The notes beneath the pieces were generated by a model. The model made no database searches. It saw only the letters and a program-made list of their open reading frames with translations, and was not told the DNA's origin. Shown piece after piece: positions 17,658 to 35,132 of a stretch of DNA of 35,132 nt. This stretch comes from a virus. The stretch lies in the IMG/VR virus record IMGVR_UViG_3300045993_000431, positions 1 to 35,132 of that record; one strand, given 5' to 3'. The position numbers were made by a program, and so were the translations under genes. Position 1 is the first letter of the stretch. Each line of letters begins with the position of its first letter.

Positions 17658-17934
17658 TCTCGCTAGTCTCCTTTTTAACTTTGTGTTCATTGCAATGGAT
17701 GAAAGCTTCAAGCTCTCGCAAAACCCTAGCAGTTTCATAAACTTTCGAAGTGGTACGAGTAAACCACGCTTTTTCATGCTGTATTTTCATAAGGTTGAGC
17801 CAACCAGCAAAGCGCTTGTAGGCCGGGTCCTCGACAGAGGCTATCTCGCAAACACGGAAAAAGTCGTTGTTCCAATAGCTTAGCCTGTCCCACAAGAGGC
17901 GGGCCGTGGCAACGGTGGCATAGCGGTATGTCAT
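17647..17934 (-). CDS. First gene of the long minus-strand unit, unknown
   Basis: 95 aa, helical and rich in Arg, Trp and Tyr ('ATARLLWDRLSYWNNDFFRVCEIAS', 'RTTSKVYETARVLRELEAFI'). It is the first gene after the origin-like region and follows a candidate extended -10 promoter (18027-18035) and a leader hairpin (17957-17977). The ribosome site is weak (AAGGA, 13 bases from the ATG). No family was recognised. Confidence 0.55.
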   Translation of the reverse strand: MTYRYATVATARLLWDRLSYWNNDFFRVCEIASVEDPAYKRFAGWLNLMKIQHEKAWFTRTTSKVYETARVLRELEAFIHCNEHKVKKETSENDY

Positions 17935-18035: not shown

Positions 18036-18083
18036 GTGGAAGAGAGAGGGAGGTCGAGGGGTCAATGCTGATATCAGCATAAA

Positions 18084-18260
18084 ATCAGCATTCAATGCTT
18101 ACAGTTAAGTATATAATATTATTATATAATACTATATAATCAGCATAATCAGCATATCTAGCGGTCTAGAACTCCCGACGTCAGAGATATGCTGATTATG
18201 CTGATTGTTGTTGTTTCCTTAGAATCTTCGGAGGGTTAACTGTAAGCATTCAATGCTGAT
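18084..18260. repeat. Outer 25-bp inverted repeat (24/25 match)
   Basis: Arms 18084-18108 and 18236-18260 are reverse complements except for one central C/G position. Each arm contains an iteron and the segment CAATGCTTACAGTTAA or its near complement. They enclose 127 bases with the inner repeat and the AT-rich tract. Confidence 0.9.
18138..18206. repeat. Inner exact 22-bp inverted repeat
   Basis: Arms 18138-18159 and 18185-18206 are perfect reverse complements, each with two tandem iterons, separated by 25 bases. This could extrude as a cruciform or present four symmetric protein-binding sites. Confidence 0.92.
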
Positions 18261-18335
18261 CGAATGCTGATCATGCTGATCTGATTTGGTGTCAGATCAA
18301 ACCCATACCCACGTAAGATTGAGCACTTACAGAGT

Positions 18336-20603
18336 CTACGGCCTTTCCCTCCCCTGAGTCAAGCAAATGCTGCATGCGTTTGGCCACGCCCCAAATTTCT
18401 GAGCCGCCAATTCTCCACTTGGTCGTCTGATTTCGACCTGCCCCATTTCCACCAGGTCAAATAATCGAACGTCCAGTTCTTTGGCCGAAATGCGCAAATT
18501 ACAGAGCAAGGCCCTCCTCGTTGACTTGCCCCCCGATCGCTTGAGGGAGTCCACAATGCGGCACCTGTCCCGCTCTGCCATGTTGTCAGCCATCCAAGTG
18601 GTACTGATGGCAACCAGGTCAGCGACGCGGTCAGTCACCACAGACAGCGCCCACCGCACGTCGTAGGGTTCCACAGTCGTGCGATTGCATCCCAGAGCAT
18701 GCAGACAAGCGCACTTGAGTACGTTGGCGCTCCCTCGGTCTATGACTGCCGCCCCCGGCCCCTCCGGGTTCCCCAAATAGACCTTTTCGCAACTTCGCTC
18801 GTATTGTTTCACCATAGTGTCGGCATCATCAGTTATCTTCATCCGTTTTCGAGGGACAACCTGTGGATCTTGCTCGGACGCCTTACCTGCCTGGAACAAG
18901 TTTCTAGCCTCAAGCATCTTCGGCACCCCACCCTTGCCATTCTCAGTAATCCCCTGCGTCATAATTCTGCGCAGTTTACCAATAATCTCTTTGTCAATGC
19001 TTGATTTATCTTTAACTTTCTTCTCGCATGGCATTGGGATATCCCACACCATAAACCGACTCAGAAGACCGCCTCCAACGCTATCGCTGTTGATTGTTTC
19101 CTTGAACTTCTTAGGAGTCCCAAAGCCCAACCAGGTGACACGAGGGTATTTAACTGCAGGCACTGAACTCGACTTGATGATTTGGGAATCCCATACTTCA
19201 ATGCCATTGTGGAGCTCTTTTAAGTCCGACAGTAATTGCTTGAGGAATACATTGTCAGTGGAGCTAACTTTGGAGAAGAAGTCCTGCGCCTCGTCCACGG
19301 CCCAGAACCTAGAGTTGAAGCTATATAATTCACAACGAAGTCCATGACTAGAGCCTGGATGACTGCACACAATCCTTGCATCGACTTCGCGAAGGATGTT
19401 CCTAGCCCCCTTGATGTAATCCTCTTTCCCACCAGCAGCAGGTAATAGGCACACCTGATATAAACTCAAACATCTACCGTCTGGAGTTAAATAACTTCCT
19501 TGAGCCACTGAGCTCATAATCGATAGGCTTGTTGCAGTCGAGAAGTGTTCATAAGACCGTATCGCGTTGTTGTATAAGTGCGCAGATATCTCAGAAATTA
19601 ACCCTTGCGGATCTAGAATCTGTGTGGTAGCTTTTGGTTGTTCATTCATGCAAAATGAGGAACACCTTTCTTCTACATCAGCTTGCAGAAGCTTCTGCTC
19701 AGGCTCCACAGCCTGGGCTTCTTTTTTATCTGAGTTTTCTTCTCGTACAAACAACAACGGTGGGTCAATTGGCTCCCAACCCGCTTCCCTAGCCATATGG
19801 ATCAGAGTTCCCACGCCTAGCCCGTTCCCGTGGAATGAATTCCATTTTTTCGCCAGCGCCCTGCTGCCTGGATAGGTGGACCCTTTTGAGCTCCACTCGT
19901 CCCACACGCTAAACTCTAGCCCGGCGCTATGGATACCCATGCCGACAGTGACCCAATCCATGTAGCTCATGTTTGGATCCAGGTGCGCCACAGCCTGCAC
20001 AACCTCGTCCAGGGTGTACTCCGTGGGCTCGGTCTCTCCCCCTTGAGCATTGCGCTTGCCCTCGCGATGTACGGGCTTGCAAACGCTACCGACCCAATCG
20101 GGCAGTGGAGCCAACTCGCAATCGTAGGGGGAGACAAGCCATTCGTAATACTCCCCACTTACATGCAGAGAAGTGGGCCCCACGACGTAGCCACCCGCCC
20201 CTTTAAGCTCCACGCCCTTGTCTTTGTAGCGGAACGCGGAAGCATATGGGGCATGTGGTGGGGCAAAATAGTAGTGGTGGCCCCCGCCCCCTGTAGCTAC
20301 CAACCAGGTGCGAGGCAGGGGCTCATTCTCCGCAATCAATGCTGCCAGGGTCTCATTGCCCCCGTGTCGTGGGTCTATATCGAGGACCACAACATCGGTG
20401 CCGCATATCACTCCTATGTTCAAGCCTGCGAAATGGCACATGTCTGTGTATGCTTGCGGGCTCCAATCGTGGCTCGGGTGTTTCCCTTGCGACGTACAAT
20501 CGGGGTCCATACAATTGCACATGCCGTTGTCTGCCGAATGGAGCCTTATGAATGTAAAATGCTTTTCAATCAACGGTTTGAGTTCATCCTGCCTGATTAG
20601 CAT
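18336..20603 (-). CDS. Primase-polymerase / helicase-type replication protein
   Basis: 755 aa multidomain protein. Residues 1-170 form an archaeo-eukaryotic-type primase-polymerase: zinc-knuckle-like CNCMDPDC..GKHP (29-43), metal-binding VLDIDP with Asp75 and Asp77, nucleotide-binding GGGGHHYYF (105-113), and 'GVELKGAGGYVVGP' (130-143). Residues about 195-280 match a PriCT-2-like domain (W..VGMGIHSAG, W..F). Residues about 330-530 form a P-loop region like DUF3987 helicases: loop LLPAAGGKEDYIK (387-398, GKE instead of GKS/T) and Walker B FWAVDEAQDFF (433-443). The C-terminus is helical with a winged-helix-like end. It probably primes and unwinds at the downstream iteron region. It starts inside the HTH gene's 3' end (20-base overlap). 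Confidence 0.88.
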   Translation of the reverse strand: MLIRQDELKPLIEKHFTFIRLHSADNGMCNCMDPDCTSQGKHPSHDWSPQAYTDMCHFAGLNIGVICGTDVVVLDIDPRHGGNETLAALIAENEPLPRTWLVATGGGGHHYYFAPPHAPYASAFRYKDKGVELKGAGGYVVGPTSLHVSGEYYEWLVSPYDCELAPLPDWVGSVCKPVHREGKRNAQGGETEPTEYTLDEVVQAVAHLDPNMSYMDWVTVGMGIHSAGLEFSVWDEWSSKGSTYPGSRALAKKWNSFHGNGLGVGTLIHMAREAGWEPIDPPLLFVREENSDKKEAQAVEPEQKLLQADVEERCSSFCMNEQPKATTQILDPQGLISEISAHLYNNAIRSYEHFSTATSLSIMSSVAQGSYLTPDGRCLSLYQVCLLPAAGGKEDYIKGARNILREVDARIVCSHPGSSHGLRCELYSFNSRFWAVDEAQDFFSKVSSTDNVFLKQLLSDLKELHNGIEVWDSQIIKSSSVPAVKYPRVTWLGFGTPKKFKETINSDSVGGGLLSRFMVWDIPMPCEKKVKDKSSIDKEIIGKLRRIMTQGITENGKGGVPKMLEARNLFQAGKASEQDPQVVPRKRMKITDDADTMVKQYERSCEKVYLGNPEGPGAAVIDRGSANVLKCACLHALGCNRTTVEPYDVRWALSVVTDRVADLVAISTTWMADNMAERDRCRIVDSLKRSGGKSTRRALLCNLRISAKELDVRLFDLVEMGQVEIRRPSGELAAQKFGAWPNACSICLTQGRERP

Positions 20604-20793
20604 TTTTCCCGCTCTTTCTTTTTAGCTCATTATTTATGCGTGCAAGCTCAACAATTTCATTTTTTACATACCAATATCGCCTATCCCCTACCTGTGGTGT
20701 GACAATACCCCTTTTAGCCCATGCCCATAGTGTGGGTTTTGTTATCCCAAGAATTTCACAAGTTTCTTTTGTTGTTATAAGATGCGCACTCAC
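20584..20793 (-). CDS. Small helix-turn-helix DNA-binding protein (excisionase/MerR-like)
   Basis: 69 aa, starting at a GTG with an AAGGGAG ribosome site. The HTH_17-type motif 'TTKETCEILGITKPTLWAWAKRG' (residues 7-29) is followed by the wing 'DRRYWYVKNEIVEL'. Such proteins act as excisionases, replication-initiation accessory proteins or repressors. No integrase is visible, so excision is unlikely. Its place as first gene of the replication operon, beside two overlapping promoters, suggests autoregulation or binding at the origin. The target is not known. Confidence 0.8.
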   Translation of the reverse strand: MSAHLITTKETCEILGITKPTLWAWAKRGIVTPQVGDRRYWYVKNEIVELARINNELKRKSGKNANQAG

Positions 20794-20854: not shown

Positions 20855-20875
20855 ACCAGAGACGAAAGGGACCCA

Positions 20876-33737: not shown

Positions 33738-35132
33738 CTACCTCATCCCGAGGCGCACCGAGTTGGGGGCTAGGTCACCGCCAAGGTTCCCACTGATAGG
33801 CCTTTCTGCCTGGTGTGCCATCTGAGGTTGGATGCCTGCAACAGTGGCCATGTGAGAGATTCCAGGTACCGCTGGGATGCCGAATGCTAGACTGATTTGC
33901 AGTTTGTTTTGATGAGAAACGTTCTTTGCTTCTGGAATCTTCTCAATCAATTTCTTTTGCAAGTCTGCATACAATTCTGGGTGCACTGTACGCACCGCCT
34001 CAACCATCCTTGGGTCCACTCGGCCTTGCCCGATTTGGTCTAAGAGCTTGCCGGGGTTGAAAGCGCCATTGGCGTACACCTGCATTTCCATGCGCTCGCT
34101 AGAAGAGAGTTTAGCGGGGGCAGTAAACACGGTGGCCGTGTTGTCCTTTTGTGGCCATTTAGTACGTAAGAAGTTCAGAGCATCATAGCTTTTATTCACC
34201 AATGCCGCATACGTCTGTGGAGCTACACTATCCAGGTGTGGATTATTTTGCCCCATGCGTTGGTCTATCAAGTTAGGGTCGTTTATGTATGGCGCGATGT
34301 TTTCCAGGGTTTTGTTGTGGTCAGTTCCACCTGGCCCATCCAAATGCTCGTTCAATTGCTGTAGCGAGAAGTTTGCCGCTGTGGAGGAAACAAGAGAGCT
34401 TCCCGCCTCTTTTGCGGTCTGGGTCTGTAATAGTCTGCCCAGCATACTGTTCGCTTTGCCGTCAAAGGCGTTGCCCATCCGCTCTAATTTACCCAAGTAG
34501 CGCACAGCCAGGTTAGGGTTTGCAATAGCCGCACCAATGAGTCCACCAGCTCCACGGACCCACCCAGGGTGTTCTGATTCTCCCATGTCGGCACCAATTT
34601 CCCCTAGGGATTGACCCACCAGGGCCCCTACTAAGATTTTCCCTGTATGGCTCATATTCCTATTTAATAGCAAGTTTGCCATTCTTAACTGCTTCAAAGT
34701 GTCCATTGATTGCAATGCTTGCTGCATATCTATTTGCGGTGGCACACCGTACTTAGTAGATATGTCTTGCATTTTCTGGATAGCATTTTGTATGTTATCC
34801 AGATTTTCAGACTTCAAAGCATTAGATACCCCTTCTGGGTTCTTCCAGAATTGCTGAGATTTTGCCTGCGATATTACCTTAACATCCCCCTCATATGGCT
34901 TTGCTACCTTAGTAGTAAACGCCTTTTCAAAGTTCCCCTTGTAGGTAATATACTGATGAAAAGCATCATCCATCTCAGCAAATTGCTTTGCATAAGATCC
35001 ATAATTGCCTTCGCTCTTTAAATGGGTGCCAAACCCATCATACACGTCCCCTAATAGAGACCTTGTAGCTTTAGCTTCACTAGATGGGTCGCTTCTTAGA
35101 CCCTTAACAAAGTCATTGAATACACTTCTAGC
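33738..35132 (-). CDS. Large ejection/internal virion protein, C-terminal part (same gene as 1396-1)
   Basis: This is the remainder of the 887-aa protein that starts at 1396. The join is in frame, because the codon at 35045 equals base 40 and lies a multiple of three from 1396. The C-terminal portion contains another small-residue-rich stretch around 'GKILVGALVGQSLGEIG', then helical and Asn/Gln-rich segments, ending at a TAG at 33738-33740. A GTG at 35045 could be mistaken for the start, but the upstream frame is fully open. The role is inferred as DNA ejection or inner core. I do not recognise a catalytic domain. Confidence 0.72.
   Translation of the reverse strand, partial: ARSVFNDFVKGLRSDPSSEAKATRSLLGDVYDGFGTHLKSEGNYGSYAKQFAEMDDAFHQYITYKGNFEKAFTTKVAKPYEGDVKVISQAKSQQFWKNPEGVSNALKSENLDNIQNAIQKMQDISTKYGVPPQIDMQQALQSMDTLKQLRMANLLLNRNMSHTGKILVGALVGQSLGEIGADMGESEHPGWVRGAGGLIGAAIANPNLAVRYLGKLERMGNAFDGKANSMLGRLLQTQTAKEAGSSLVSSTAANFSLQQLNEHLDGPGGTDHNKTLENIAPYINDPNLIDQRMGQNNPHLDSVAPQTYAALVNKSYDALNFLRTKWPQKDNTATVFTAPAKLSSSERMEMQVYANGAFNPGKLLDQIGQGRVDPRMVEAVRTVHPELYADLQKKLIEKIPEAKNVSHQNKLQISLAFGIPAVPGISHMATVAGIQPQMAHQAERPISGNLGGDLAPNSVRLGMR
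35006..35132. repeat. Terminal direct repeat, right copy
   Basis: Exact copy of bases 1-127. It should be removed once when closing the circle, which fuses the coding sequence 1396-1 with 35005-33738. Confidence 0.93.

Follow-up and report, generated by a model that had tools for sequence, protein, structure and literature searches.

The window, that is, the whole 35,132-nt stretch of IMG/VR virus record IMGVR_UViG_3300045993_000431, contains a dense cluster of one 8-bp word in the non-coding gap between two minus-strand open reading frames (ORFs). One is a primase-polymerase (Prim-Pol) gene for a 755-aa protein (18336–20603, −) whose stop lies at 18336, and the other starts at 17934 (−). The cluster, at 18065–18280, fills this gap; it begins 55 bp past the stop of the Prim-Pol gene and lies approximately 130 bp upstream of the co-oriented ORF. 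A genome-wide 8-mer count gave 12 occurrences of ATCAGCAT/ATGCTGAT, 10 of which fell within these 216 bases, while the other two (7728 and 25217) were solitary. ATCAGCAT is the most frequent 8-mer in the window, and no other 8-mer shows comparable clustering. The ten exact copies start at 18065, 18073, 18084, 18139, 18148, 18189, 18198, 18253, 18264, and 18273 with the orientations − ++ ++ −− −−− and form a nested inverted order. At its center, two iterons 9 bp apart in a left arm (18138–18159, +) face two inverted iterons 9 bp apart in a right arm (18185–18206, −), and the arms constitute a 22-nt inverted repeat (100%) separated by a 25-bp spacer (18160–18184). Three copies flank this core on the gene-distal side (18065–18091; the copy at 18065 on the minus strand, those at 18073 and 18084 on the plus strand) and three on the gene-proximal side (18253, 18264, and 18273; 18253–18280, −), largely within an outer inverted repeat of 36 nt with 89% identity (18073–18108, +, and 18236–18271, −). 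An earlier note on this DNA had described ten exact copies in 216 bases, an exact 22-bp inverted repeat, and a non-coding position after the primase-polymerase gene, and the 8-mer count, the repeat coordinates, and the ORF positions agree with all three. The 25-bp near-perfect outer repeat in the same note is present, but it is only the inner part of the 36-nt repeat.

We searched for the central arrangement as a pair of copies of one word, spaced 8–12 bp, that faces a pair of inverted copies in a span of approximately 320 bp. In the window, this 2+2 pattern was found only in the array, and it appeared in 0 of 600 shuffles. The array strand also folded far more stably than shuffled sequences (z −10.8); this value was discarded as evidence because inverted repeats give such folding by construction. 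Promoter-like matches in the region were at about chance level. A direct DNA search for the region among phage records gave no match, and a search of viral contigs with the 17-mer ATCAGCATAATCAGCAT returned 26 scattered single matches, none of which carried a ATCAGCAT cluster in an 8-mer scan.

Based on duplex stability, an A/T tract at 18109–18138 is proposed to be the DNA unwinding element. Within it, 22 consecutive bases starting at 18110 are A or T, a run longer than any other in the genome; a single C and further A/T come next. The 30-bp segment at 18110 has the lowest duplex stability among all genome positions (−0.81 against a mean of −1.414 with s.d. 0.118, z 5.1; the next best value was −1.047). 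The AT-only tract of the earlier note was thus confirmed, and the melting profile places the weakest duplex of the genome there. The tract has iterons on both sides and is situated between the gene-distal outer and inner arms.

The 755-aa product of the gene at 18336–20603 is the proposed initiator. Prim-Pol and PriCT-2 domains were identified in it, along with a DUF3987 helicase-like region, whose match is slightly below the family cut-off; relatives of the C-terminal half of the protein exceed this cut-off. Because structure prediction of the whole protein was poor (pLDDT 47), the C-terminal 116 aa (18339–18686, −), the proposed iteron-binding domain, were modeled alone. The model, built from five sequences, had a pLDDT of 82.6 and the element order H-E-H-H-E-E. 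Its strongest Foldseek matches were mostly winged helices of the MarR, ROK, and Z-alpha types, all sub-threshold (E-values 0.04 or worse), and the best sequence matches of the domain were likewise sub-threshold winged helices. The C-terminus of the protein is therefore predicted to be a winged helix. A small HTH_17/MerR-like protein, a possible accessory binder or regulator, is encoded at 20584–20793 (−), overlapping the start of the initiator gene. In the nearest relative of the phage, an ORF across the array (L093:9024–9635, −) contains a second copy of the C-terminal winged-helix domain of the initiator, and its product is perhaps a competitor or copy-control protein.

Bases 1–127 of the record are exactly repeated at 35006–35132 as a 127-bp direct terminal repeat, and an 889-codon open frame spans the junction once the ends are joined there; the contig is therefore probably a complete genome of 35,005 bp, circular or circularly permuted. 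No tRNA was found, and Rfam matched nothing. The phage had been called a lytic podovirus; the "lytic" part is unproven, as the window encodes a Rha-type regulator, while Pfam and PHROG searches of its main ORFs gave no match for an integrase. The cumulative GC-skew minimum, which had been suggested as a check on the origin, was located at 20,857 and coincides with the switch in gene orientation. The skew test is non-discriminating, speaking neither for nor against an origin at the array and giving no independent support. A metagenome bin of Acidiferrobacteraceae contains one capsid relative, which may be contamination.

With the capsid protein as a query, we collected 56 related loci; Prim-Pol or terminase used as single-protein queries in viral contigs gave no matches. 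The relatives are mostly environmental contigs, which may be incomplete. The same nested layout was found directly 3′ of a homologous helicase gene in three related lineages, each with different iteron words. In the nearest relatives, G002 and G003 (capsid 80%, portal 60%), an outer inverted repeat of 46 nt (89%) surrounds an exact 18-nt inner repeat made up of two GATCACA sites 9 bp apart, and an A/T tract lies between the gene-distal outer arm and the inner arm. TGTCGCA sites occupy the same nest beside the 441-aa helicase of G007, and GTCGCCA sites do so in G031; the helicases of G007 and G031 share 67% identity. The outer-to-inner distances are near symmetric in the window and the three relative lineages (55/55, 42/42, 42/43, and 52/45). 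Each of the three relatives that share the nest likewise has the least stable 30-bp duplex of its fetched DNA within the array, in the gene-distal part that separates the outer from the inner sites. A conserved layout with a changing word would be expected of a site and its binding protein changing together.

Some further features of these relatives were noted. The outer sites of the nearest relative (L093:9629–9660) read GTTCACA and resemble the type 1 repeat of phage P4, TGTTCACC. The same locus carries two glycine/tyrosine-rich tandem-repeat ORFs (L093:15065–16030), each adjoining a copy of a near-identical 113-aa ORF. A related 37.9-kb record has dense clusters of CCAAGTCG/CGGCGAC repeats at both ends (L109:19141–19811 and L108:9–339).

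In a comparison with open-access literature, the arrangement in the window resembles several known origins. As in P4/SaPI/PICI-type origins, the site lies directly 3′ of the gene for a putative initiator helicase, here and in the three related lineages, and short iterons, ten in the window, stand on both sides of an AT-rich tract that melts readily. In the P4 record, crr, annotated as cis-required for replication, is directly 3′ of the alpha primase gene; it contains 8-bp type 1 repeats, one pair of which is 9 bp apart, together with inverted copies, and the repeats in the ori region are 10 and 11 bp apart. The alpha protein is described, in a passage of PMC4234260 citing Yeo 2002, as binding the origin repeats via a winged helix. 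However, the sites of P4 are divided between crr and a distant ori, the inverted copies within crr are spaced 18 bp apart, leaving only half of a 2+2 pair, the weakest duplex of the genome is outside crr, and alpha has a TOPRIM primase rather than a Prim-Pol (PMC4234260). The C-terminal domain of SaPI Rep recognizes iterons directly downstream of its own gene, apparently as two hexamers (PMC7581432), and PICI origins consist of an AT-rich region flanked by two iteron sets, an arrangement that the authors described as common to no other known bacterial replicon (PMC6092414). The present array shares with SaPI/PICI origins, where the initiator is Rep or Pri-Rep, both the placement of iterons immediately past the gene for the helicase (PMC7581432, PMC6092414) and their position around an AT-rich region, but its palindrome is fully nested and includes an additional half without an AT tract, the helicase is of the DUF3987 type, and the element is a complete phage. 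A large inverted repeat 3′ of a Prim-Pol gene is also shared with plasmid pRN1, which requires a stem-loop 3′ of the gene for its Prim-Pol/helicase/winged-helix protein; among pRN plasmids the stem-loop structure is kept and the sequence is not, and the pRN1 authors noted a similar stem-loop in phages BIP-1/BPP-1 (PMC4234260). Although both pRN1 and BPP-1 were described as having a stem-loop without iterons, the BPP-1 stem arms (L130:2608–2711) consist of two tandem 9-bp TTGCCTCGT repeats and their inverted copies, like the inner pair here; the outer sets are absent from BPP-1.

Taking these results together, we consider the array likely to be the replication origin of the phage, one akin to those of P4, SaPIs, and PICIs, at which the neighboring initiator would bind. 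An iteron-based origin next to the primase-polymerase had been proposed in the earlier note, and it is well supported by the match to known origins and by the comparison with relatives, in which the nested layout recurs at the same place in three lineages with a different motif. In a mechanism of this kind, the product of the directly upstream gene (18336–20603) would act as the initiator, with its predicted C-terminal winged helix binding each 8-bp ATCAGCAT site. The inner 2+2 inverted pair would set two initiator/helicase assemblies facing each other in opposite orientation, and the outer 3+3 sets may recruit or stabilize additional protein on both flanks. ATP-driven helicase action would then melt the A/T tract that separates the outer from the inner arm on the gene-distal side, after which the Prim-Pol domain of the same protein could prime synthesis. 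The array may in addition have a regulatory role, being upstream of the co-oriented gene that starts at 17934.

A purely regulatory function, in which the array serves as an operator of the downstream operon towards the terminase genes and is bound by the small HTH protein (20584–20793) or another regulator, is unlikely. Its position between the Prim-Pol gene and the ORF starting at 17934, the promoter-like matches, though near chance level, and the HTH genes that lie upstream of the initiator genes of the window and of G002 would suit an operator, but no HTH protein was seen beside the G007 helicase. An origin better accounts for three observations: the least stable duplex of the genome falls within the array, G002, G007, and G031 preserve its nested symmetry, and it matches the P4 crr, SaPI/PICI, and pRN1 origins. 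The Prim-Pol domain of the neighboring protein raises another explanation, namely that Prim-Pol recognizes the 8-mers in the template and starts primers there. NrS-1 polymerase offers a precedent: this phage Prim-Pol/helicase protein recognizes the 8-nt template sequence TTTGGTTA, two copies of which lie at the genome center (PMC7102993, PMC8718748) and were proposed to mark the origin (PMC7102993). In NrS-1, however, the sequence is a priming site present as two single copies and not as an array, and the strict geometry and double-strand symmetry seen here suit duplex binding better than single-strand priming. Moreover, no Prim-Pol domain was found in the G002, G003, G007, and G031 records, which are possibly incomplete; since their arrays lie beside helicases without Prim-Pol, the sites appear to go with the helicase/winged-helix part rather than with primer starts. 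We therefore regard primer-start sites as quite improbable.

There is very little probability, in our judgment, that the array is a pac/cos-like packaging start site for the small terminase. The terS gene is 2.3 kb from the array, and Bordetella phage BPP-1 and Burkholderia phage BcepC6B likewise have terS close to their arrays, but the array follows the helicase gene even where the annotated neighbors are not terminases, as in Mycobacterium phage Yuna and Lacticaseibacillus phage R24.1. It is equally improbable that the array belongs to a phage-plasmid, the lifestyle that the earlier note had raised on account of the iterons, and serves there in plasmid-type incompatibility or partition. Iterons are indeed known from many plasmid origins, and the terminally repetitive contig is consistent with a circular or permuted genome. 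However, Pfam and PHROG searches of the main ORFs of the window found no partition protein, plasmid Rep, or integrase, and elements of the P4 and SaPI types normally have iteron origins; as such origins occur in P4, SaPIs/PICIs (PMC7581432, PMC6092414), and several phages, an iteron origin does not imply a plasmid, and the phage-plasmid idea was not upheld.

The array extends a known kind of origin, and the interesting part is the recurrence of its 9-bp geometry across different helicases. Within the window and its relatives, the 2+2 pattern was confined to the arrays, and shuffling a single locus 494 times reproduced a relaxed version no more than 4 times. Seven other phages, whose hosts are Bordetella, Burkholderia, Acinetobacter, Mycobacterium, Lacticaseibacillus, Acidithiobacillus, and Microcystis, also have the inner 2+2 pair 3′ of the gene for their primase-helicase. 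The paired words differ, being TTGCCTCGT in BPP-1, AGTGACGTT in Acinetobacter phage 4316, GGGACGAT in BcepC6B, and GGCACAGAT in Mycobacterium phage Yuna. The search parameters were fixed after the first cases had been seen; only a small sample of eleven phages with BPP-1-type primases, one per host genus, was chosen before looking. Three of these eleven had the layout (Lacticaseibacillus phage R24.1, Acidithiobacillus phage AcaML1, and Microcystis phage Mae-JY02), and in most of the eight without it, the gene was separated from its next neighbor by at most about 125 bases. A 9-bp spacing was present in at least one arm of 10 of the 11 tabulated arrays, the spacing in G007 being 8. None of nine phages whose Prim-Pol proteins are more distantly related had the paired layout, and the portions read of G009 and G029 contained Prim-Pol but no array. 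An AT-rich GAGAAAATA cluster in locus L123 looked alike and was rejected, as it did not show the paired layout.

When the BPP-1 protein was compared with that of the window, the alignment was confined to PriCT-2 and a short piece of Prim-Pol, and the helicases had no BLAST similarity; therefore, the common geometry is not explained by a recognizably common helicase domain. We tentatively propose, at somewhat less than even probability, a geometric rule in which self-loading primase-helicases with unrelated helicase domains recognize two iterons 9 bp apart that face two inverted ones, located just past the 3′ end of the gene that encodes the protein and surrounding the least stable duplex nearby, with the iteron sequence varying freely with the initiator and the geometry fixed. 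If this rule is true, a single winged-helix domain could suffice to read origin specificity, and the natural pairs of motif and initiator would offer a route to how a winged helix picks its iteron. To our knowledge, the origins of most phages are unmapped, and a layout that is geometrically strict and independent of sequence would make it possible, where the initiator is a primase-helicase, to locate phage origins from the sequence alone. The BPP-1 stem-loop could likewise be reinterpreted as paired iterons, and an organization said to be peculiar to PICIs would be extended to ordinary phages. A different iteron layout was observed in Pseudomonas phage Torfinnsbu, which has four direct CAAAGCAA repeats past its primase gene (L126:5497–5608).
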